NCBI GenBank assembly: GCA_015295835.1
Contig: DVEG01000025.1
Coordinates: forward strand, 1-64,000
DNA: 64,000 nucleotides
Direction: 5' to 3'
Origin: Oscillatoriaceae cyanobacterium M7585_C2015_266
Lineage (GTDB): Bacteria; Cyanobacteriota; Cyanobacteriia; Cyanobacteriales; Oscillatoriaceae
Both the position numbers and the translations under genes were made by a program. Positions 5,359-38,164 of the stretch are shown one piece after another. The notes under the pieces are model-generated. The model did not search any database, was not told where the DNA came from, and saw nothing but the letters and a program-made list of their open reading frames with translations. Each line of letters starts with the position of its first letter. The stretch's first letter is position 1.

Positions 5359-7827
5359 ATGGCCAACGCAAACAAATGGCAATCTAAAATAATTTTATCG
5401 GTGGTGTGGGGCATTCCTACGACTGTAAGTCTGGCCATACCTCCTGCCTTTGCTGAAACGAAATTTAGCGACATACAAGGGCACTGGGCACAGTCTTGCA
5501 TCGAACAACTGGCAAGTCGACAAATAGTCACAGGTCGTCAGGATGGTACATTTGCACCAACTGAACCGGTAAGCCGAGCAGAATTTTCAGTTATCGTTCG
5601 CAAGGCATTTCCAAATATAACACCTGCGCGAGAAGCAATAAATTTTGCAGATATACCAAGCGACTATTGGGCAGCAGAAGCTATTCAATACAGCTACCGC
5701 ACTAACTTCCTAACAGGATATTCTAATCGCATCTTTAATCCAAACAGAAAAATAACTCGCCTACAAGCACTGATGGCATTGGCAAGCGGGTTAAAATACT
5801 CTCCGAAATTACCAGCAGCCGAAACGCTTGCAGTAGCCTATGAAGATGCAGCAGATATTCCTGAATGGGGGCGAAATGCGATCGCTGCTGTCACAGAAAA
5901 CCGAATTGTCGTCAATTATCCTAACGTTAAACGCCTCAACCCTAATCAAATAGCAACTCGCGCCGATGTAGCAGCATTTGTCTGTCAAGCCCTTTTCAAA
6001 GGGCAAACAGCAGTAGTGCCAGCACAATATATCGCTGGAATAACACCAATATCACCAAGCGGCAGCACAACACCCCAAATTTCTACAGCTCAAACCCCAT
6101 CAGCAACTTTACCGCCTGGGGTGACAATAAAAACTACAGCAGTCGATTACGGCAATGTGCGGGCAGAATTATCCTATCAAGTCAGAGAATCCAGCAATAT
6201 TGGCTCGAATTTGCGTTTGAAAATTCTTCGAGGTGGTAAAATTATAACGGATGAACTAATACTAATACCAAGGAGAAAAAGTAGCAATGAAGGAGTTTTG
6301 GGAGAGGGGAGTAATGAGGGTCAAGTATTGAATTTAGTAGTGCGGGATATAGATGGCGATCGCGAACCGGAAGTAATTGTTGATTTACTATCTTCTGCTG
6401 GCGACGGCAATGGTTTCTATTCCTATATATATCGTTACGAACCGCTGCAAAATCGTTATATTGCCCTAGAACAATATTGGGCCAACATCGGTTACGAAGT
6501 AAGAGACATAGAGGCAGATGGCATCCCAGAATTTGACAGTCTAGATATTCGATTTGCTAGCGCCCTCGATTTGCCATCAGGAGATACAACTCTTCCTAAA
6601 CGCATCTGGAATTATCGTCAAGGGCAAATGCTTGACGTCACTAAACAGTATCCGGAATTAGTATATGAACATACTAAACAACTTTGGCAATTGTTTCAAG
6701 AGCGACGTCGCCAAAATCAAGATGTAAAAGCAGTTTTGGCGGCTTATATTGCAAATAAATATACCCTAGGGCAAGAAGTTGAAGGCTGGAATAAAGTTAA
6801 AGAAGCTTATAAAGAAAGCGATCGCGAAGATTATTTTGCCTTAGTGCGAAAAATCCTTACTGACTACGGCTATATGGCAGCATCCGCTCCCGAAAAGCCA
6901 ACCGCAAGTAACAATCAAAGCGATACTAATCAATTTCAGCGCCCCCAACTAATCACAAATTTCTCAGGAGTATTAAACCCGGTTTTTTCCACTGCTATCA
7001 GCCCAGATGGCAAAATTTTAGCAATAGGTTCTGATAAACAAATTCAACTCTGGGAGCTAACCAAGGGGCAAGTATTGAAAACTCTAGAAGGACATAATGG
7101 CAATATTTGGTCACTTACATTTTCTCCCAATGGCGAAACTCTGATAAGTTGTAGCGGCGACTCTACTATTAAACTATGGAATGTGCGCACTGGCGAGTTG
7201 CAACGCACCCTTTCTCATGAAAATTGGGTAAATTTTGTCGCTATTTCTCCCGACGGAGAAACTTTGGTAAGTGCTTATAAAACAGTGCGGCTGTGGAAAG
7301 CAAATACCGGCGAGTTGCAAAAAATTGTCGAAGGATTCGGACCAATTGGATTTAGTCCTGATGGCCAAATCCTGCTTAGCAGTGACGGCAAAGGTAAAAT
7401 TCAAATACGCGACGCTAGTACTGGAGAATTACGCCGCACTATAAGGGTTTCTGAATCTTCAGGGGAAGGGCTTAGTTTAATGGCGCTCGCTCCTGATAAT
7501 AAAACTGTGGCAAGTGTGCGAGTTGGCAAAGGCACTATCGAAGTGTGGGAGTTGAGAAATGGCAGACGAATGTATCTACTTGATGGAGAAGTGTCTGAAA
7601 TAAAAGCGATCGCTATTTCTCCCAATAGCGAAATCCTCGCTTCCGCTACTGGTGAAGGTAAAATCCAGTTATGGAATCTCCGTACTGGTGAACTACTAGA
7701 ATCTTTCCCGGCATATTCTATGACAGTCAAGGGAATTGCTTTCACCCCTGACGGCAAACAGTTAGTGAGTGTCGGCGCTGATAATGAAGGCGCTATCAGT
7801 GTTAAAATTTGGCAGTTGTCTTCGTAG
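5359..7827 (+). CDS. Secreted protein with three SLH domains and C-terminal WD40 propeller
   Basis: 822 residues. A signal peptide (1-32, cleavage after AFA) is followed by three S-layer homology domains at about 34-84, 94-147 and 158-212, each with the HWA/YWA/EWG start and TRLQA/SRAEF-type end. SLH domains bind peptidoglycan-linked polymer, so this end should attach to the cell wall. A Thr/Pro/Ser linker (225-250) leads to an uncharacterised region with Asp-rich VVRDIDGDREPEV and DIEADGIPEF segments that recall FG-GAP/VCBS loops (about 255-430). From about 530 to the end there are roughly seven WD40-type repeats (SPDGKILA, IQLWEL, IKLWNV, IQLWNL). WD40 propellers are usually cytosolic scaffolds, so a wall-anchored one is unusual. 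Partner unknown. Confidence 0.85.
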   Translation: MANANKWQSKIILSVVWGIPTTVSLAIPPAFAETKFSDIQGHWAQSCIEQLASRQIVTGRQDGTFAPTEPVSRAEFSVIVRKAFPNITPAREAINFADIPSDYWAAEAIQYSYRTNFLTGYSNRIFNPNRKITRLQALMALASGLKYSPKLPAAETLAVAYEDAADIPEWGRNAIAAVTENRIVVNYPNVKRLNPNQIATRADVAAFVCQALFKGQTAVVPAQYIAGITPISPSGSTTPQISTAQTPSATLPPGVTIKTTAVDYGNVRAELSYQVRESSNIGSNLRLKILRGGKIITDELILIPRRKSSNEGVLGEGSNEGQVLNLVVRDIDGDREPEVIVDLLSSAGDGNGFYSYIYRYEPLQNRYIALEQYWANIGYEVRDIEADGIPEFDSLDIRFASALDLPSGDTTLPKRIWNYRQGQMLDVTKQYPELVYEHTKQLWQLFQERRRQNQDVKAVLAAYIANKYTLGQEVEGWNKVKEAYKESDREDYFALVRKILTDYGYMAASAPEKPTASNNQSDTNQFQRPQLITNFSGVLNPVFSTAISPDGKILAIGSDKQIQLWELTKGQVLKTLEGHNGNIWSLTFSPNGETLISCSGDSTIKLWNVRTGELQRTLSHENWVNFVAISPDGETLVSAYKTVRLWKANTGELQKIVEGFGPIGFSPDGQILLSSDGKGKIQIRDASTGELRRTIRVSESSGEGLSLMALAPDNKTVASVRVGKGTIEVWELRNGRRMYLLDGEVSEIKAIAISPNSEILASATGEGKIQLWNLRTGELLESFPAYSMTVKGIAFTPDGKQLVSVGADNEGAISVKIWQLSS

Positions 7828-29607: not shown

Positions 29608-30621
29608 ATGAACATGAATAAGTTAGCAGAGAAAGATAGTAAAGTTAAAATACTATCAGGATTTCAACAATTACTTGCTGAACGAAAAAAAGTAGGATCA
29701 AAAGTTTCTACAAAAGAAGAAGAGGCAGCTAAAGAAAAAAATAAGCAACTTCTAGAGGTGACTTCTACATATACTATTGATAGTATTGTTAAAGGGCTGG
29801 CAAATTTACAATTAGACTTTAACAGGATTATAAACGAACTCTCCGATAAATTAACGGGTGAGTCTTCTAAGTTGGATGAACTCAAGCAAGCGATCGCTAT
29901 TGAAACCCAGCACTTGCAAGAGCTACAGCAAATCCGCATCGTAGCCGAAGCCTTACATATTTTAACCTTAGAACATCAAGAAAAATTAAAGCTTCTGGAA
30001 AGAGAAGCCGCTGATTACCGACAAGCCCTAGAAAAAGATATAGCATTCCAACGCAAGGCTTGGCAAAAAGAACAAGAGGAATTTGAAGCAACTGTAAAAG
30101 AACAAGAAGAAATATTAGCAAAAGAACGTCAGCAGGAAGCAGAAGATTATCAATACCAAATAAACCGCGATCGCCAAATTGAAATGGATGAATATGAACA
30201 AAGAAAACGCCAACTGCAAAGAGAGCTACAAGAAACAGAAGAAAATAAACAAAAACAGTGGCGAGAGCGTGAAAAAATCCTGGCAGATAATCAAAAATTA
30301 TTTGAAGAATATCAACAGAAAATAGCAGCTTTGCCAGAGGAACTAAAACAAGCAGAGGAAGAAGCCCGTAAAAAAGCGATCGAAGAAATTAACCGAGATG
30401 CAAAAGTTAAAGCAGAGCTATTTGAAAAAGAATGGCAAAGCACCAAACAGGGATATGAGTTAAAAATTCAATCTCTAGAAGCAACAATTCAGCGACAATC
30501 CCAACAAATCGCCGATTTATCTTCACAATTACAAGCAGCAATGCGACAAGCTCAAGAACTTGCTATGAGAGCATTTGCCAATTCTTCCAATACTGCACCG
30601 GCGGAAAAAGAAAAAAATTAA
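29608..30621 (+). CDS. Coiled-coil protein, tandem paralogue 1
   Basis: 337 residues. A short N-terminal segment precedes an almost continuous charged coiled coil (about 75-320) rich in Glu, Lys and Gln, often labelled myosin-like in automatic annotation. Shared with the next gene: a GLANLQLDFNRIINELSDKL segment near residue 65, the DYQYQINRDRQIEMDEYE block near 180 and YELKIQSLEATIQ near 290. No signal peptide or membrane segment. It could be structural or filament-forming, but nothing shows this directly. The pair is separated by 52 bp and probably cotranscribed. Confidence 0.8.
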   Translation: MNMNKLAEKDSKVKILSGFQQLLAERKKVGSKVSTKEEEAAKEKNKQLLEVTSTYTIDSIVKGLANLQLDFNRIINELSDKLTGESSKLDELKQAIAIETQHLQELQQIRIVAEALHILTLEHQEKLKLLEREAADYRQALEKDIAFQRKAWQKEQEEFEATVKEQEEILAKERQQEAEDYQYQINRDRQIEMDEYEQRKRQLQRELQETEENKQKQWREREKILADNQKLFEEYQQKIAALPEELKQAEEEARKKAIEEINRDAKVKAELFEKEWQSTKQGYELKIQSLEATIQRQSQQIADLSSQLQAAMRQAQELAMRAFANSSNTAPAEKEKN

Positions 30622-30673
30622 CTTTCAAAATGGTTTCTGAACGAACAATTAATATAAAATGCCCGAGGTAAAT

Positions 30674-31765
30674 ATGGCAGCAAAAAAAATAAACTCTAAG
30701 AGTACAAAAGAAGAAATTTTAAAAGCGTTTGAAGAATTAAATCAGGAAAAAGTAGCCCTAGAGGAGGAATTAACTAAACTACGAAAAGAGCAGAAATCTT
30801 TAGACTCACGCCAGCCGATTAATCAAGTAAAAATAGAACCTCAACACAAAAACGCACCAAGTCAAGTTGCCCAAGAGCGAATGAAACAGAAAATTGAAGG
30901 GCTAAAAAAGTTACAACTGGGATTTGGAGGTGCCGTCAGCGAGTTATCAGAAGAGCTTACTTCAGAAGCCTCTAAGCTGCAAGAAATTCAAAAATTGGTT
31001 GCAGAAGAAATTGAGCAGTTAAAAGCTCTGCACAATATAGAAGTCTCTGAAGATACTTTAGATACACTGCTCCAACAATATGAAGAAAGCGTCAAAAATT
31101 TTGAGACAGAATTAGAGGAGCGGCAGGAATCATTAGAGCAAGAAAAGCTGGAGCTGAAAAGAAGTTGGGATAAAGAGCAAGAAAAACGGAAAAAGACAAT
31201 TAAAGAGCGCAATGAATTGCAGACAAAACTACGGGAGCGGGAAGTACAAGAATATCAGTATAATATAAAATTAGAACGCCAACGCGATACAGAGGAATAC
31301 GAATTACGCAAACAAGCCCTCTATAAGGAATTGGAAGAAATTAAGCAGCAAAAGGAAAAAGAATGGGCAGAGCAAGAAAAAGCACTTTCTCTTCGCGAAA
31401 AGCAATTTGAAGAAGCGAAAGCTAAGGTAGAAGCCTTTCCAAAAGAAAAGGAAGCGGCGATTAAGAAAGCAACAGAAGAAGGCAAAAGCATTGCCTTCTA
31501 TCAAGCAAAAATTAAAGCTGATTTGTATGCTAAAGAAGTAGAAGGGCAAAAGCGCTTCTATGAGTTGAGAATTCAATCCCTAGAAGAAACGATTAAAAAT
31601 CAGGAAGGGCAAATTGCCAGCCTCTGGAAGCAACTTGAAGCCGCACTTAAGCAGGTTCAGGATTTAGCAGTTAAAGCAATCGAGGGAGCCTCGAATTTAA
31701 GTTCGTCTCAAGTTCTTAAAGAAATCGCTCTGGAGCAAGCAAAGACAATTCAAAAAGGCAAGTAA
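30674..31765 (+). CDS. Coiled-coil protein, tandem paralogue 2
   Basis: 363 residues from the ATG at 30674, which has GAGG 6 bp upstream; an ATG at 30659 adds five residues and lacks an RBS. Same plan as the preceding gene: GLKKLQLGFGGAVSELSEEL near 75, EYQYNIKLERQRDTEEYE near 200 and YELRIQSLEETIK near 295 align with it, so the two arose by duplication. Nearly all of it is predicted coiled coil. It ends 7 bp from the stop of the converging SPFH gene. Soluble, function unknown. Confidence 0.8.
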   Translation: MAAKKINSKSTKEEILKAFEELNQEKVALEEELTKLRKEQKSLDSRQPINQVKIEPQHKNAPSQVAQERMKQKIEGLKKLQLGFGGAVSELSEELTSEASKLQEIQKLVAEEIEQLKALHNIEVSEDTLDTLLQQYEESVKNFETELEERQESLEQEKLELKRSWDKEQEKRKKTIKERNELQTKLREREVQEYQYNIKLERQRDTEEYELRKQALYKELEEIKQQKEKEWAEQEKALSLREKQFEEAKAKVEAFPKEKEAAIKKATEEGKSIAFYQAKIKADLYAKEVEGQKRFYELRIQSLEETIKNQEGQIASLWKQLEAALKQVQDLAVKAIEGASNLSSSQVLKEIALEQAKTIQKGK

Positions 31766-31772
31766 AGAGTTT

Positions 31773-32648
31773 TTAATTTCCTTGAAGCAGGATTGGCAAT
31801 TTTTCTTCGCCAGAGCCAATAACGATGACTTTGGTGTTAGAAGAGGTTGCCAATTTTTCCATGGCTTCGATATTTTTCCACTGCAGGTATTGCGGTGTCA
31901 GCCCTTGAGAGACTATTTTTTGAAAATTGGCGATGCCTTTAGCTTCTATTTGTTTGCGTTCCGCTTCTTTGCGTTCTTTTTGTAGTACGAATTCCATTTG
32001 TTGGCTTTCCTGCTCAGCTCGCAGTTTTTCTTGGATCGCAGCTTGCAGGTTTTGCGGCAGTTGTACATCTCTTAAGAGAGTTTCTTCAACGATGAAACCT
32101 AGGGGAGTCACCTGCTGGGAAAGCTCTTCACGAATTTTGTCAGTAATTTCTTGCCGTTTTTCTGTGTAAACGCCTTTGGATTCGTAGCTTGAAGTGATTT
32201 TGCGGATAATGGAGCGAAAGCGGGAAATTACTATTTCTTGTTCGTCGGTGCCAATTTTTTTATAGACTTCCGCAGCTTTTTCGGGATTGAGAGAATATTG
32301 CAAGCTAACATCTAAATTGAGGAGCAATCCTTCTCTGGAAGTGGTGGATACCGTTTCTTTGATATCCTTGATTCGCGTCGAGAATTTGACAAGTTTGGAG
32401 AAGGGATTGAGGAAATGGATACCTGGTTTGAGGGGAGTGGGGGAGACAGAGCCGAATGTGTCAACAACCCCTACATAGCCAGCGGGTATAATGGTAATGA
32501 GCCGGGAAATACAGATAAGCGCTCCCAATAGGGCGACTACTAGCGCGATTGCTTTTACTCTCTTGCGTTTGTTTTCCGGCAAATAATTTGCACCCGCAAA
32601 GGTTAAACTAGAACTTAGAGTTACGATTAGTGAAAAAATAAATAGCAT
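31773..32648 (-). CDS. SPFH/Band 7 (prohibitin-like) membrane protein
   Basis: 291 residues, start ATG with AGGAATTC upstream. An N-terminal hydrophobic segment, a second membrane helix (about 33-55, VVALLGALICISRLITIIP), then the SPFH domain beginning IPAGYVGVVDTFGSV (about 53-220) and a charged helical tail (EKLRAEQESQQMEF, KERKEAERKQIEAKG). Such proteins oligomerise into ring-like cages in the membrane and often shield or regulate proteases such as FtsH. It resembles the prohibitin homologue Slr1106 of Synechocystis in architecture. Two M48 proteases and an M50 protease are in the same window, though not adjacent. Confidence 0.9.
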   Translation of the reverse strand: MLFIFSLIVTLSSSLTFAGANYLPENKRKRVKAIALVVALLGALICISRLITIIPAGYVGVVDTFGSVSPTPLKPGIHFLNPFSKLVKFSTRIKDIKETVSTTSREGLLLNLDVSLQYSLNPEKAAEVYKKIGTDEQEIVISRFRSIIRKITSSYESKGVYTEKRQEITDKIREELSQQVTPLGFIVEETLLRDVQLPQNLQAAIQEKLRAEQESQQMEFVLQKERKEAERKQIEAKGIANFQKIVSQGLTPQYLQWKNIEAMEKLATSSNTKVIVIGSGEEKLPILLQGN

Positions 32649-32880: not shown

Positions 32881-33843
32881 ATGGCAAAGGCTCTGTTAGC
32901 AGGTTGCACTATTAGCAAGGATAATAATAAAATGGAGGAGAAACTCAGACAGCTCGTGCGCTCTGCGCAACAGCACCCCCCCGAAACCGAAGAAAAGCAA
33001 AAGGCTATCTGTGAATTGGCAGATGAAATTCTGCGAGCGCGAAAAATTTGTCGTTTGCCAAAAGGGCAACCGCTCTCAGGAATTTATTTAGATATTTACC
33101 AGCAAGCACACGCTAGCCTTTGCCGTCAGCTTGAGGAAAAAATTGACACATACGCTCCCCAATCTCAATCCCTGAGAGAGTGGGCAAATTTATTACGCGA
33201 TAGTGCATTAAAAGAAGTATTAGATGACGCTCAACTGAAAAAAATAGCCCTCGAAGCCCAACGCCACCCCCCAGGCAGTGAGCTGCGACAGCACGCTTTG
33301 CGGGAATTAGTAGAAGCAATTCGCCTGTCGGGCAAACTTTGCCGCCCCCATCGCAGTAAATTTTCACCAGCATTTTACGAACTTGCTTATGAGGAAGCAG
33401 TAAATCAAACATTACTTTATGTTTGCCAGAAAATAGACAATTACGATCCCAACAGAGGAAAAGAAAAAAAATTTATTAACTGGGTAAATTTCCGGATAGA
33501 TAAAATTCTTATAGATTTGCAAAACGAAATAAGAAATACAAAACAAGATAAATTTCCCACCTTAGCAGAATTGGAAAATATAGTTAATTATAAAGAAGAA
33601 AATGAGCAATTAATATCCGAAGTGTTGAGAGAGTTGATAGAAAAAGATGAGAAAAAAATTTTTAGAAAAAAGTATATCAGAGACTATCCCGCTGCCAATT
33701 TCCAAAACCTTGCCCTAGCAATTATCGCGGGTAAAAGCTGGCAAGAGATTTCGGCAGAATTAGGAATTAAGGAAACAACACTAAGAAGTTTTTTCCGGCG
33801 ATGCTGTCAAAAATTTGCTCCTATTTTTCGCGAATACTTGTAA
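32881..33843 (+). CDS. Sigma-70-like DNA-binding protein with internal duplication (CHAT operon gene 1)
   Basis: 320 residues from the ATG at 32881; an ATG at 32932 is an alternative. Two related blocks each begin QQHPPE/QRHPPG and resemble sigma region 2: one near 25-110 and a second near 125-210 that retains YDPNRGKEKKFINWVNFRIDKIL. The C-terminal part has a helix-turn-helix-like AIIAGKSWQEISAELGIKE (about 280-300) as in sigma region 4. Sigma-like proteins of this type occur beside DUF1822 and CHAT genes in cyanobacteria. It may work as a regulator or atypical sigma factor for the operon; this is inference. The next gene starts 19 bp on. Confidence 0.75.
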   Translation: MAKALLAGCTISKDNNKMEEKLRQLVRSAQQHPPETEEKQKAICELADEILRARKICRLPKGQPLSGIYLDIYQQAHASLCRQLEEKIDTYAPQSQSLREWANLLRDSALKEVLDDAQLKKIALEAQRHPPGSELRQHALRELVEAIRLSGKLCRPHRSKFSPAFYELAYEEAVNQTLLYVCQKIDNYDPNRGKEKKFINWVNFRIDKILIDLQNEIRNTKQDKFPTLAELENIVNYKEENEQLISEVLRELIEKDEKKIFRKKYIRDYPAANFQNLALAIIAGKSWQEISAELGIKETTLRSFFRRCCQKFAPIFREYL

Positions 33844-33862
33844 TTGAATAAGGCAGGCATTT

Positions 33863-34852
33863 ATGAATCACGCTATCGAACCCATAACTTTCACAGTTTC
33901 TCTATCCCTGTCTGCGCATCGCGCCGCAGAAAAATTTTCCCGCCAGCAATCCAATCCGCGCAAAGCTAAACAAGTCTATCTAAATACACTGGCAGTATAT
34001 GCCGTAAATTTTTATTTGGGGTGTCTAGGATTCGAGACGGATTTAGAAAACAGCGAAAGTTGGAATCCAGTAATGCAAACGCTGCTAGATGCAGCCGATT
34101 TAAAAATAAAAAATATCGGAAAATTAGAATGCAGAGCCGTGCTGCCTGATGCCGATTGGATTGAGGTGCCGCCCGAAGTTTGGGAAGATAGAATTGGCTG
34201 CGTGGCAGTAAAACTCAGCAAATCTTTGCGGGAAGCAACCCTGCTGGGATTTATTAAACAAATGCCGGAAAAATTTTTTATGTATCAATTGTCATCACTG
34301 GAAGATTTACCGGAATATTTGCAAACAATTGCCAGGCGATCGCAGCCACTCTCAAAAATAGAAAATCCTCAGAATAAGGAAGAAGCAACCAAACCCATCG
34401 AAGGAGCAATTGCCAAATTAAAACAGTGGTTTGAAGGGATTTTTGAGCCAGATTGGCAGCCAGTTGAATTAGTCTTAGCAGCGAATTTTAGAAGCCCAAC
34501 TCACCCCGTCAGTGGCAATATTGAAACATCAAAAGCTAGCATCAGTCGAGCAAAAATCATAAACTTGGGAATGCAACTGGCTGAAACTACCGTCGCTCTA
34601 GTAGTGCGCCTGACAACCACCGCGACTGAAGAAATCGATGTGCGCTTGCGACTATATCCCGCTCGCGAGAATTACCTACCAAAAGATCTAAAATTAACCG
34701 TAGTGGATGAATCGGGAAAGGTTTGCATGGAAGCGCAAGCCCGCAGAGCCGATAACTGGATACAATTGCAATTCGGAGCCTTACCGGGAGAAAAATTCAG
34801 CACGATCATTTCTTTAAGAGATGTTAGCATTAAAGAAAACTTTGTAATCTGA
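33863..34852 (+). CDS. DUF1822 family protein (CHAT operon gene 2)
   Basis: 329 residues. The N terminus fits DUF1822: TVSLSLSAHRAAEKFSRQQ, then KAKQVYLNTLAVYAVNFYL and a WNPVMQTLLDAADLKI block, followed by PPEVWEDRIGCVAVKLS. The C-terminal part (about 190-325) is beta-rich and contains LRLYPARENYLPKDLKL. No signal peptide or membrane helix. The molecular function is unknown; the family is found almost only in cyanobacteria and repeatedly next to CHAT and sigma-like genes. It starts 20 bp after the sigma-like gene and ends 30 bp before the CHAT gene. Confidence 0.85.
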   Translation: MNHAIEPITFTVSLSLSAHRAAEKFSRQQSNPRKAKQVYLNTLAVYAVNFYLGCLGFETDLENSESWNPVMQTLLDAADLKIKNIGKLECRAVLPDADWIEVPPEVWEDRIGCVAVKLSKSLREATLLGFIKQMPEKFFMYQLSSLEDLPEYLQTIARRSQPLSKIENPQNKEEATKPIEGAIAKLKQWFEGIFEPDWQPVELVLAANFRSPTHPVSGNIETSKASISRAKIINLGMQLAETTVALVVRLTTTATEEIDVRLRLYPARENYLPKDLKLTVVDESGKVCMEAQARRADNWIQLQFGALPGEKFSTIISLRDVSIKENFVI

Positions 34853-34882
34853 GATTACAAGCTCTGTCAGGAGAAAGCTATT

Positions 34883-35980
34883 ATGCCAAAAGTAATCAGA
34901 CTGCGACTCCTAGAAGAAAACTCCGTACAGGGATTCCCGGTAATTTTAGAAATAAGGGAAGAGGGGGCGTTAGTTCACAGAGAATATGATAACATAGGGT
35001 TTCTCCCACCACTGCCGCAACAGCTAGAAGCATCTTTTGCTAACTGGCAGACAACTTATCGTGAATTGACAGACGCCCGCTCCCTAACCCAAGTGGGCAC
35101 CCGCCTTAGCCCCAAACCAGGAGTAACCAATCGCTCTTATTGCGAATACAGCGACGAATTAGAAAAACGATTGAATGAATGGCTTAACTCCGTAGATAGC
35201 CGCTGGCAGACCATCCGAGACAGTTTAATCGCAAATCGAGCAGTTTCAGGAGAAGAAATTCGCGTCATTATAGAAACAGACGATATCCGTTTACAGCACT
35301 TACCCTGGCAAGAGTGGGATTTATTTACAGAATACTACCCGCAAGCAGAAATCGCTTTGAGTGTTCCCGTAAAAGCCACGTCAATTATTCCTCCACCTAG
35401 ATATTCGCAAGTAAGAATCTTAGTGGCTGTCGGCAAAAGCGACGGAATTAATACCGAATTTGATCTAGAAGTGATCCATAATTTAAAAACAAAAGGGGCA
35501 GAGGTGATTTCTCTTCTCCAACCCAAACCGGAGAAGTTATATAATGCCCTGCGGGATGAAAAAGGCTACCACATTTTTGTTTTTATCGGGCACAGCGGCA
35601 GCCAGGAAAACGGGCAAATCGGCTGGATTGAAGTAAACGAAACAGATAGTTTACGGATTAAAGATTTTAAAGATGCCATAAAAAGAGCAATAAAAAACGG
35701 GCTACAATTGGCGATTTTTAATTCCTGCGACGGGTTGGGATTGGCGAGACAACTAGCTGAGTACAATCTGCCTCAAAGTATCGTCATGCGCGAACCAATA
35801 CCCGATCCGGTGGCTCAGGATTTTTTGAAACATTTCTTTGCGGAGTTTGTGGGAGGAAAATCTTTATTTAGCGCTGTGCGAGAAGCACGAGAACGTTTGG
35901 AACATTGGAATTTATTTTATCCGGGGGCAAAGTGGCTGCCCACTATTTGTATTAATCCGTCAGTGCAACCGCTAACGTGA
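34883..35980 (+). CDS. CHAT-domain caspase-like protease (CHAT operon gene 3)
   Basis: 365 residues, start ATG with AGGAGA upstream. The N-terminal ~150 residues form an uncharacterised domain containing ERLNEWL-type helices and the LPWQEWD motif often seen just before CHAT domains. The CHAT domain covers about 165-360: the catalytic His lies in VFIGHSG and the catalytic Cys in IFNSCDGLGLA, both present. It lacks the N-terminal TPR array of TPR-CHAT proteins such as Csx29, so activation must come through another partner, perhaps the DUF1822 or the anchored protein of the same operon. CHAT proteases are linked to programmed cell death and phage defence; the role here is inferred. Confidence 0.88.
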   Translation: MPKVIRLRLLEENSVQGFPVILEIREEGALVHREYDNIGFLPPLPQQLEASFANWQTTYRELTDARSLTQVGTRLSPKPGVTNRSYCEYSDELEKRLNEWLNSVDSRWQTIRDSLIANRAVSGEEIRVIIETDDIRLQHLPWQEWDLFTEYYPQAEIALSVPVKATSIIPPPRYSQVRILVAVGKSDGINTEFDLEVIHNLKTKGAEVISLLQPKPEKLYNALRDEKGYHIFVFIGHSGSQENGQIGWIEVNETDSLRIKDFKDAIKRAIKNGLQLAIFNSCDGLGLARQLAEYNLPQSIVMREPIPDPVAQDFLKHFFAEFVGGKSLFSAVREARERLEHWNLFYPGAKWLPTICINPSVQPLT

Positions 35981-35986
35981 CAGGAA

Positions 35987-37084
35987 TTGGGGAGCAATAA
36001 GATTGCGAAATCCCTTTTGCCTCCGACAACGTCGCCGCCTGTTAATACACCGCAAAAATTTTTTAAAGTAGCGCTCGCTTCGGGAATGATTGGCGCAGTT
36101 GCCGGAGGTGCACTCGCTTTATCTGTTACAAAAACATCCGCCCCACTACCACCACCTACTCCTCAAACCTACAAACCTTCTACCTTCCTTTCCCTTAAAG
36201 AAATAACATATCCTCGCGCCACATTGCACTATGGCGGTAGCACTGCTTGGGCACCAATTCGTCGCTTAGTAGACGAAAAAATCAAAAAAGATTTAGTCGA
36301 TTTTAATATAGTCTATACACAACACCCCACCCAACCAGCAGGTTCCGGCACTGGTATCAAAATGTTACTAGACGGGCAGCTATCTTTTGCTCAATCTTCC
36401 CGCCCAATTTCCGATAGCGAATATGAAATAGCAGCGCGTAGGGGATTACGGTTGAGACAAGTGCCCGTCGCGATCGATGGAATTGCGATTATCGTTCACC
36501 CTAATTTAAAAATAGAAGGATTAACTTTAGCGCAATTAAAAGATATTTACACGGGTAAAATTACTAATTGGCGCCAACTCGGCGCTCAACCTATAAAAAT
36601 AAAACCGTACATGCCCCCGCTAGGTAGCGGTGCAACTGAACTGTTTAAAGAAACTATTTTACTATCCGAAAATTGGGGAAAAAATGTTGTATCTATAGAA
36701 ACACCAACTGAAGCCATCAGAAAAGTCAGTCAGCCTCAAAATCCAAACGAAATAGGAGGCATCTATTTTGCTTCAGCTTCTAATTTAGTCCGGCAGTGCA
36801 ATGTCAAACCACTACCTATCAGCCGCCACGCCGGAAGTTCATTAGTAGCTCCCTATGAAGGAAAACTCGTTCCCCGTGAAAAATGTCCAAGAGAACGAAA
36901 TACTCTTAATACTAAAGCTTTTGAAAATGGAGAGTACCCACTTACCCGCCGTTTGTTTACAATCATCAAGCAAGACGGGCAAATAGACGAGCAAGCGGGA
37001 GAAGCTTATACACAGTTGCTATTAACCGACGAGGGGCAAGAACTAATCGAAAAGGCAGGGTTTATTCCGATCCGCTCTAGGTAA
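35987..37084 (+). CDS. Membrane-anchored PstS-like substrate-binding protein (CHAT operon gene 4)
   Basis: 365 residues from a TTG start 6 bp after the CHAT stop; the start is uncertain since no good ATG or GTG is near. One N-terminal hydrophobic helix (about 30-48, ALASGMIGAVAGGALALSV) precedes a Pro-rich linker and a PBP-like domain of the phosphate-binding type (about 75-360), with GGSTAWAPI, GSGTGIKMLLDGQLSFAQSSRP and IDGIAIIVHP. The GSGTG and SSRP ligand loops are present. No ABC transporter genes accompany it, so a sensor role is more likely than uptake. It would sit on the outer face of the membrane and could signal to the cytosolic operon partners; that is inference. Confidence 0.8.
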   Translation: MGSNKIAKSLLPPTTSPPVNTPQKFFKVALASGMIGAVAGGALALSVTKTSAPLPPPTPQTYKPSTFLSLKEITYPRATLHYGGSTAWAPIRRLVDEKIKKDLVDFNIVYTQHPTQPAGSGTGIKMLLDGQLSFAQSSRPISDSEYEIAARRGLRLRQVPVAIDGIAIIVHPNLKIEGLTLAQLKDIYTGKITNWRQLGAQPIKIKPYMPPLGSGATELFKETILLSENWGKNVVSIETPTEAIRKVSQPQNPNEIGGIYFASASNLVRQCNVKPLPISRHAGSSLVAPYEGKLVPREKCPRERNTLNTKAFENGEYPLTRRLFTIIKQDGQIDEQAGEAYTQLLLTDEGQELIEKAGFIPIRSR

Positions 37085-37096
37085 GCGGATTTTTTG
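37070..37096 (+). terminator. Intrinsic terminator overlapping the stop of the PstS-like gene
   Basis: ATCCGCT (37070-37076) pairs perfectly with AGCGGAT (37084-37090) across a 7-nt loop, and a T-run follows. The TAA at 37082-37084 lies inside the loop and 3' arm, so the last codons encode the 5' arm. It closes the four-gene operon. Confidence 0.85.
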
Positions 37097-37168: not shown

Positions 37169-38164
37169 ATGCCCACCTATACTGGAATCTCCAGCGAAGC
37201 CTTTCGCCACCCCCTTGATCGCGAAGCCGAGCAAGCATTGCGAAGTTTACCAGGATTCGATCTCGTCGCTCGCAAATTTGTCGAATTTATCTATGAACGC
37301 CCGCAGTACGTTTTTCTGATGGGCAACAGTATTCAAGTAGGACCGCGCCAATATTCCAGCATTTATCAGATATTTCGAGAATGCCTGCGCGATTTAGACA
37401 TTTACCCTGAACCTGCTCTATTTATCAGCCAAAATCCTCTCGCCAACGCCTACGCATTAGGACAAGAGCAGCCCTGTGTAGTATTAAATGCTGGTTTGTT
37501 AGATTTATTGAATGAGGCAGAACTCCGTGCCGTAATTGCCCACGAATTGGGACATATTAAATGCAGTCACACAACTTTAACTCAGATGGCACTATGGGTG
37601 ACGGGATTTGCTTCTTTCATTGGCGATTTGACACTTGGAATTGGTAATATTCTCAGCAGAGGCTTAATATTTGCCTTTTATGAATGGCTACGAAAAGCAG
37701 AATTATCTGCAGATCGCGCCTCTCTTTTAGTCATGGATGACTTAAATCCTGTTTTATATTCTATGATGAAATTATCGGGCGGCAGCATGCGTCGTGGACA
37801 TGAATGCAGTTTAGATGAGTTTATCAAACAAGCACAAAAATATCAGGAACTCGACGAAAACGCCCTCAATCAAGTCTATAAGTTTTTGTTGTATAATAAT
37901 ATCGCACAAGGAGTGTTTCTAAGTCATCCGTTTACGGTAGAACGAGTCACCTACATACAAGAGTGGGCAAATTCGGAAGAATACCGCCAAATTCGCTTAG
38001 GCAATTACAAAAGAGCTGAGGCTGAAGGAGCTGTGGAAGTGCCTGCCCAACCCTCGACTTCAAAGACGAATAAAAAAGAAGATGTGGAAGCATTGCGGCG
38101 TCAAGTAAAGGAATTACAAGAGCAAATAGAGCGAATTAAACAAGAGCGTTCTTCCTGCAAATAG
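37169..38164 (+). CDS. M48 family zinc metalloprotease, cytosolic type with C-terminal coiled coil
   Basis: 331 residues. The zinc motif is AHELGHIKCSH near residue 131, with the third ligand in KAELSADRAS near 177. Unlike HtpX there is no pair of N-terminal membrane helices; a single hydrophobic stretch (about 145-172) follows the motif. The C-terminal 40 residues form a coiled coil (VEALRRQVKELQEQIERIKQ). It comes 84 bp after the CHAT operon terminator, so it is probably separately transcribed but may belong to the same neighbourhood. The family degrades misfolded membrane or soluble proteins; the substrate is unknown. Confidence 0.88.
   Translation: MPTYTGISSEAFRHPLDREAEQALRSLPGFDLVARKFVEFIYERPQYVFLMGNSIQVGPRQYSSIYQIFRECLRDLDIYPEPALFISQNPLANAYALGQEQPCVVLNAGLLDLLNEAELRAVIAHELGHIKCSHTTLTQMALWVTGFASFIGDLTLGIGNILSRGLIFAFYEWLRKAELSADRASLLVMDDLNPVLYSMMKLSGGSMRRGHECSLDEFIKQAQKYQELDENALNQVYKFLLYNNIAQGVFLSHPFTVERVTYIQEWANSEEYRQIRLGNYKRAEAEGAVEVPAQPSTSKTNKKEDVEALRRQVKELQEQIERIKQERSSCK

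Follow-up and report, generated by a model that had tools for sequence, protein, structure and literature searches.

We analysed the first 64,000 nucleotides of contig DVEG01000025.1 of Oscillatoriaceae cyanobacterium M7585_C2015_266 (hereafter the window), where a preliminary description had placed a four-gene operon encoding a sigma-like protein, a DUF1822 protein, a CHAT protease and an anchored PstS-like protein. The operon is real and of an already predicted kind, and was misread as four genes owing to one stop codon. On balance, we favour the reading that it is an EACC2-caspase (CHAT) receptor-protease operon, with a putative role in signalling, in which the receptor-protease gene is interrupted by an in-frame TGA (TGG to TGA) and the receptor is disabled or weakened in this genome.

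One reading frame interrupted by an in-frame TGA

Four open reading frames (ORFs) on the + strand were confirmed at positions 32881-33843, 33863-34852, 34883-35980 and 35987-37084, separated by gaps of 19, 30 and 6 nt, exactly as the preliminary description gave them. The count of four genes did not survive, since ORFs 3 and 4 form a single reading frame interrupted by the TGA at 35978-35980, and only TGA CAG GAA lies between them. On the sequence evidence that follows, these two ORFs are one receptor-protease gene carrying an in-frame UGA.

The TGA occupies codon 366, the site of a near-invariant tryptophan. Across an alignment of 81 CHAT domains, this column holds Trp, always encoded by TGG, in 79 of the 80 other members and TTT (Phe) in the remaining one. 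The tryptophan is kept even in proteins with nothing after CHAT (loci L128 and L139 of our comparison) and therefore belongs to the protease domain, where, in the predicted structure, it opens the last ordered helix (residues 366-370). The truncation is also evident from length: the CHAT ORF spans 375 codons from stop to stop (365 residues from its ATG), whereas the open frames of relatives recovered by whole-genome search mostly run to around 700-800 residues.

In its nearest relatives (L010, L011, L013 and L041) the CHAT domain, a transmembrane helix and the periplasmic-binding-protein (PBP) domain form a single protein which can be aligned with the window sequence end to end at 44-52% identity. 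The same fusion is found at all 12 of the other CHAT-PBP loci, in Nostoc, Amazonocrinis, Pleurocapsa, Tolypothrix, Scytonema and others. It is also present on a plasmid of Nostoc sp. HK-01 (AP018323.1:30049-32124), where a single uninterrupted gene covers 94% of the query; this gene is annotated merely as a hypothetical protein, and the family therefore occurs on plasmids too. No other CHAT-PBP fusion appeared among the matches listed for eight genomes of the family. A tree of PBP domains places the window sequence in a six-member clade in which the other five are all fused (100/93), apart from stand-alone PstS-like proteins, and a tree of CHAT domains places it in a 12-member clade with seven fused proteins and four with other C-termini (SH-aLRT 100). 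Taken together, these findings make the fusion ancestral and the stop secondary.

The argument for fusion is carried by the alignment of the tryptophan and by the fused relatives, and not by the shared frame. Adjacency in one frame was rejected as proof in its own right, since the DUF1822 and CHAT ORFs of the window also share a frame by chance and yet are separate genes in relatives, with differing frames in L011. We also rejected the idea that UGA is a sense codon in this genome, which encodes the release factor RF2 (489 bits) and ends its DUF1822 gene with TGA.

Predicted architecture of the protease and sensor halves

The protease half (34883..35977, + strand, residues 1-365) is preceded by a clear ribosome-binding site, AGGAG at normal spacing. 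It matches PF12770 (CHAT) with an E-value of 1.7e-9 and 38.0 bits against a curated cut-off of 24, the match spanning only the caspase part. Both catalytic motifs named in the preliminary description are present, with the histidine codon (H237, GHSG) at 35591..35593 and the cysteine codon (C282, NSCDG) at 35726..35728, both on the + strand and both invariant in 55 homologues; conservation across these homologues extends over residues 1-366. We predicted a structure for the read-through protein with the TGA read as Trp (mean predicted local distance difference test score, pLDDT, 83, with low values in the linker and helix region). It shows two folded parts, a protease part, made up of an N-terminal lobe of strands and helices (residues 3-160) and a caspase lobe (178-357), and a PBP part. 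From residue 1 onwards, model residues 1-372 match separase over around 300-314 residues with Z-scores of 22-25 (best 24.6, with 314 residues matched) and the Craspase protease TPR-CHAT/Csx29 with Z-scores of 20-21. In this model, therefore, the two lobes together look like one putative protease of the separase/Craspase type. The N-terminal lobe, which lies outside the Pfam match, appears from its position and from the published description to be the EACC2 domain of Kaur et al. (2021, eLife; PMC8195603).

The sensor half (35981..37084, + strand) continues the frame with a linker, which includes a would-be restart codon (TTG, 35987), one transmembrane helix and a PstS-type PBP domain (PF12849, PBP_like_2; E-value 2.6e-31). 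The predicted helix, ALASGMIGAVAGGALALSV (36071..36127, + strand), has a mean hydropathy of 1.78 over 19 residues, and a comparable helix (1.33-2.77) lies between CHAT and PBP in every fused relative. Model residues 445-733 match PstS structures with Z-scores up to 27.6, and the sequence matches PstS as well. The preliminary description had proposed the PstS-like protein as an external sensor. The sensor role probably stands; its independence does not, since by origin it belongs to the protease gene, as a sensor domain at the C-terminal end. Nor did the view of the protease as lacking its own sensor hold up, since members of this family carry various C-terminal sensors. Among 55 members we counted CHASE2 in 18, PBP_like_2 in 13 (the window included), Peripla_BP_6 in six, nSTAND1 in five and WD40 in four.

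These features can be set against systems that are better known. Like separase (clan CD) and TPR-CHAT/Csx29, the window protein is predicted to have a two-lobed protease fold over residues 1-372 with a His-Cys dyad. It differs from them in lacking a helical-repeat or TPR regulatory part, in its anchored receptor architecture and in sequence, with an identity of only 9-14%. The characteristic features of Craspase, an N-terminal TPR region and a gRAMP partner, were not found, as the protease fold begins at residue 1 and there is no CRISPR gene in the operon or among its immediate neighbours. The PBP domain shares its fold with phosphate-binding PstS proteins (Synechocystis Sll0540, PDB 9l8j; PDB 4gd5) at Z-scores of 25-27 and 20-30% identity, but is joined by a helix to a protease and is not a recognisable component of a phosphate ABC transporter: no permease genes lie beside it, where the neighbours encode an SPFH protein and an M48 peptidase, and its score against the curated PstS model TIGR02136 is 142.7 bits, below the cut-off of 206.6. 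Genetic data exist for HetF, another putative protease of the CHAT type from cyanobacteria (PMC8406250); the window protein gave only a weak partial match to the HetF model NF045509 (23.9 bits against a cut-off of 1200) and by this score falls outside that family. An anti-phage defence system was considered and rejected, PADLOC having returned weak partial matches for just two of the four proteins, the best of them (E-value 5.7e-4, 16.9 bits) covering 67 residues of GajB.

The closest counterpart is the group of EACC2-caspase proteins described in the genome survey of Kaur et al. (PMC8195603). As set out there, these proteins combine a constant EACC2 and caspase module with a highly variable C-terminus, and, where a TRADD-N gene is absent, they mostly have an ECF sigma factor gene and a DUF1822 gene as neighbours; the survey proposes that stimuli activate an autopeptidase with output through the sigma factor. 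The window operon shares the N-terminal alpha+beta lobe joined to a caspase/CHAT domain and the DUF1822 neighbour, and it resembles these systems in its probable C-terminal sensor and in its sigma-like neighbour, a putative ECF sigma factor, so the full gene set is not undescribed, as had been supposed. It differs in that its sensor half is cut off by the in-frame TGA: the sensor that lies in frame and fused in 12 relatives is here separated by one codon. This sensor is a PstS-type PBP, where the survey speaks of small-molecule-binding domains.

Partner genes and the surroundings of the operon

The second ORF (33863..34852, + strand) encodes a DUF1822 protein of 329 residues (PF08852, E-value 5.8e-76) and is the only DUF1822 gene in this genome. 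DUF1822 occurs in 54 of 60 related genomes, and the CHAT family of the window likewise in 54 of 60. At 54 of the 78 CHAT loci whose upstream sequence extends for 1.3 kb or more, the window counted, a DUF1822 gene lies upstream on the same strand. The linkage is not due to chance, and the neighbourhood anticipated in the preliminary description is indeed conserved. The predicted structure (mean pLDDT 88.6) consists of an alpha/beta N-terminal domain followed by an Ig-like beta sandwich (around residues 225-329). No relative in the PDB was found by sequence, and a fold search returned beta-sandwich matches up to a Z-score of 7.1, none of them strong and all within the C-terminal sandwich, so that they hardly bear on the N-terminal domain. 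Kaur et al. label DUF1822 a TPR protein (PMC8195603), and beyond that survey we found scarcely any mention of it in the literature. The mixed alpha/beta and beta-sandwich model disagrees with this label, which we rejected for the window member because its predicted structure does not look like TPR.

The first ORF (32881..33843, + strand) encodes a sigma-70/ECF-like protein of 320 residues with a C-terminal helix-turn-helix, and homologues of it lie upstream of DUF1822-CHAT. Residues 161-311 match TIGR02937 (NCBIfam, sigma70-ECF) with an E-value of 6.1e-10 and 39.0 bits, somewhat below the cut-off of 42.9, and Pfam gave only sub-threshold helix-turn-helix matches (Sigma70_r4_2, 17.3 bits). A profile search of the PDB with this family returned mostly helix-turn-helix regulators and no sigma factor. 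Its N-terminal third (32881-33243), over some 100 residues, repeats in degenerate form the segment that comes next (24 of 82 residues identical, E-value 6e-9), a repeat that, among the homologues aligned, is clearly shared only with that of L081. A homologue is present at no fewer than 14 of the 45 CHAT loci whose upstream sequence reaches 2.6 kb or more, a lower bound given the narrow search model, and 13 of these 14 also have DUF1822. That the genes belong together, as the preliminary description held, is right, and its suggestion that the sigma-like protein controls expression is a plausible output of the system.

A hairpin of eight pairs followed by a T-run resembles an intrinsic terminator (37069..37091, + strand) and overlaps the last stop codon of the operon. 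The reported terminator is present in this form, but such sites are no more frequent in the region than expected by chance (6 found against 5.6 expected). Past it lies the M48 peptidase gene (37169-38164). In Planktothricoides sp. SR001 (L145:9392-10351) an M48 gene with 69% identity lies downstream of DUF1822 and CHAT genes. The CHAT protein there carries a multi-helix C-terminus in place of the PBP, which suggests that both operons sit at one chromosomal position, the sensor having been exchanged. On the other side, two adjacent and similar-looking coiled-coil proteins (337 and 368 residues; 29608-32648), with no Pfam family above cut-off, face the SPFH/band-7 membrane protein on the opposite strand. 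The M48, SPFH and coiled-coil genes were considered as parts of the system and rejected, as they have no matches at other CHAT loci save for the M48 gene of L145 and a weak one at L085.

Two further observations stand apart. In Okeania hirsuta a CHAT gene (L098:5899-8472) that has DUF1822 and sigma-like genes beside it is interrupted within its protease domain by an in-frame stop codon (6475-6477); its sensor looks to be of a different periplasmic-binding type. Elsewhere in the window (5359-7827), a protein of 822 residues pairs S-layer homology repeats near its N-terminus with WD40 repeats at its C-terminus, a combination which seems unusual.

Function and present state of the receptor

In its intact form, the protein would bind a ligand outside the cell and pass the signal through its single helix to the cytoplasmic protease. 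Once switched by the ligand, the protease could process DUF1822, the sigma-like protein or both, or else itself, and this processing would change transcription. In the window, the main product would be a soluble protease of 365 residues lacking both the last conserved residue and the sensor, with at most a little full-length receptor made by readthrough of the UGA. Sensor and protease are then probably uncoupled, and the receptor of this genome has probably been disabled or strongly weakened recently. The complete sense-and-cleave module of the preliminary description is accordingly doubtful, since the DNA as assembled no longer joins the sensor to the protease. Of the layers beneath this reading, the linkage, the frame, the fusion, the dyad, the change from Trp to stop and the descent of the PBP are read from sequence alone; the separase-like fold, the PstS fold and the single-helix topology are model predictions, and the signalling is what we infer from them.

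Several points weigh against a disabled receptor protease. After the TGA, the PBP half stays open for 367 codons to its natural end, and its branch is not unusually long beside those of fused relatives, in a crude comparison of the end branches of the PBP and CHAT trees; this half may still be made and used. The TGA is known from one assembly of the species, which makes a base error possible. The PBP scores below the curated PstS cut-off, and phosphate is at most a candidate ligand. DUF1822 and the sigma-like protein are candidate substrates by inference only, and our literature search found no experiment on any member of the EACC2-caspase systems.

The intact PBP frame and its unaccelerated branch equally suit the picture of the preliminary description, in which gene fission has left two cooperating proteins, a soluble protease and a sensor with an anchor of its own, the latter made by reinitiation at TTG 35987 (or at ATG 36086). 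The TTG lies 6 nt past the stop, and the linker and helix at the new N-terminus would make a signal anchor. We nevertheless regard this as unlikely: before the TTG, the first in-frame start after the TGA, an AGGA sits almost against the codon and not at normal spacing, no well-placed Shine-Dalgarno sequence was found before any in-frame start of the PBP half, all 12 other CHAT-PBP loci are fused, and the split removes a tryptophan conserved even in proteins that end with CHAT. A sequencing or assembly error, with TGG as the true codon of an ordinary intact receptor protease, is unlikely too. A lone G-to-A change at a near-invariant codon with both sides otherwise intact is just how a base error would look, and the other eight of the nine CHAT matches in this genome have no internal stop; set against this, the assembly consists of 35 contigs with a completeness of 98.5%, no further error was seen in the operon, and the Okeania gene has an in-frame stop in another lineage.

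Two possibilities concern the UGA itself. Of the bacterial stop codons UGA leaks most, and enteric bacteria read through it at frequencies of 10^-2 to 10^-3 (PMC4989110). Near-cognate reading of UGA inserts Trp, so that tRNA-Trp might occasionally restore the conserved residue. Most of the product would then be soluble protease, with enough full-length receptor made alongside it to function. The context here is UGA-C, and a C at position +4 raises stop readthrough in yeast (PMC5289835). This is distinctly improbable, as no other family member has a stop at the codon-366 site, so the device is not conserved, and no readthrough element was identified. Very unlikely, finally, is that the UGA acts as a working switch, termination giving a free cytosolic separase-like protease and Trp readthrough a small membrane pool of receptor protease, with the ratio of free to anchored enzyme set by translation conditions.

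Under the favoured reading of a receptor-protease gene disabled or weakened by its TGA, a plausible gene call is corrected: what seemed a protease and a separate sensor is a receptor protease encoded by one gene, which a single codon interrupts. The structural comparison contradicts the TPR label of DUF1822, as far as the predicted model goes. Reading the EACC2 and caspase lobes as a protease of the separase/Craspase type suggests a concrete biochemical model for the cyanobacterial EACC2 systems, and the intact fused relatives (e.g. L079 and L082) are good candidates for studying a bacterial caspase-like protease that acts as a surface receptor.

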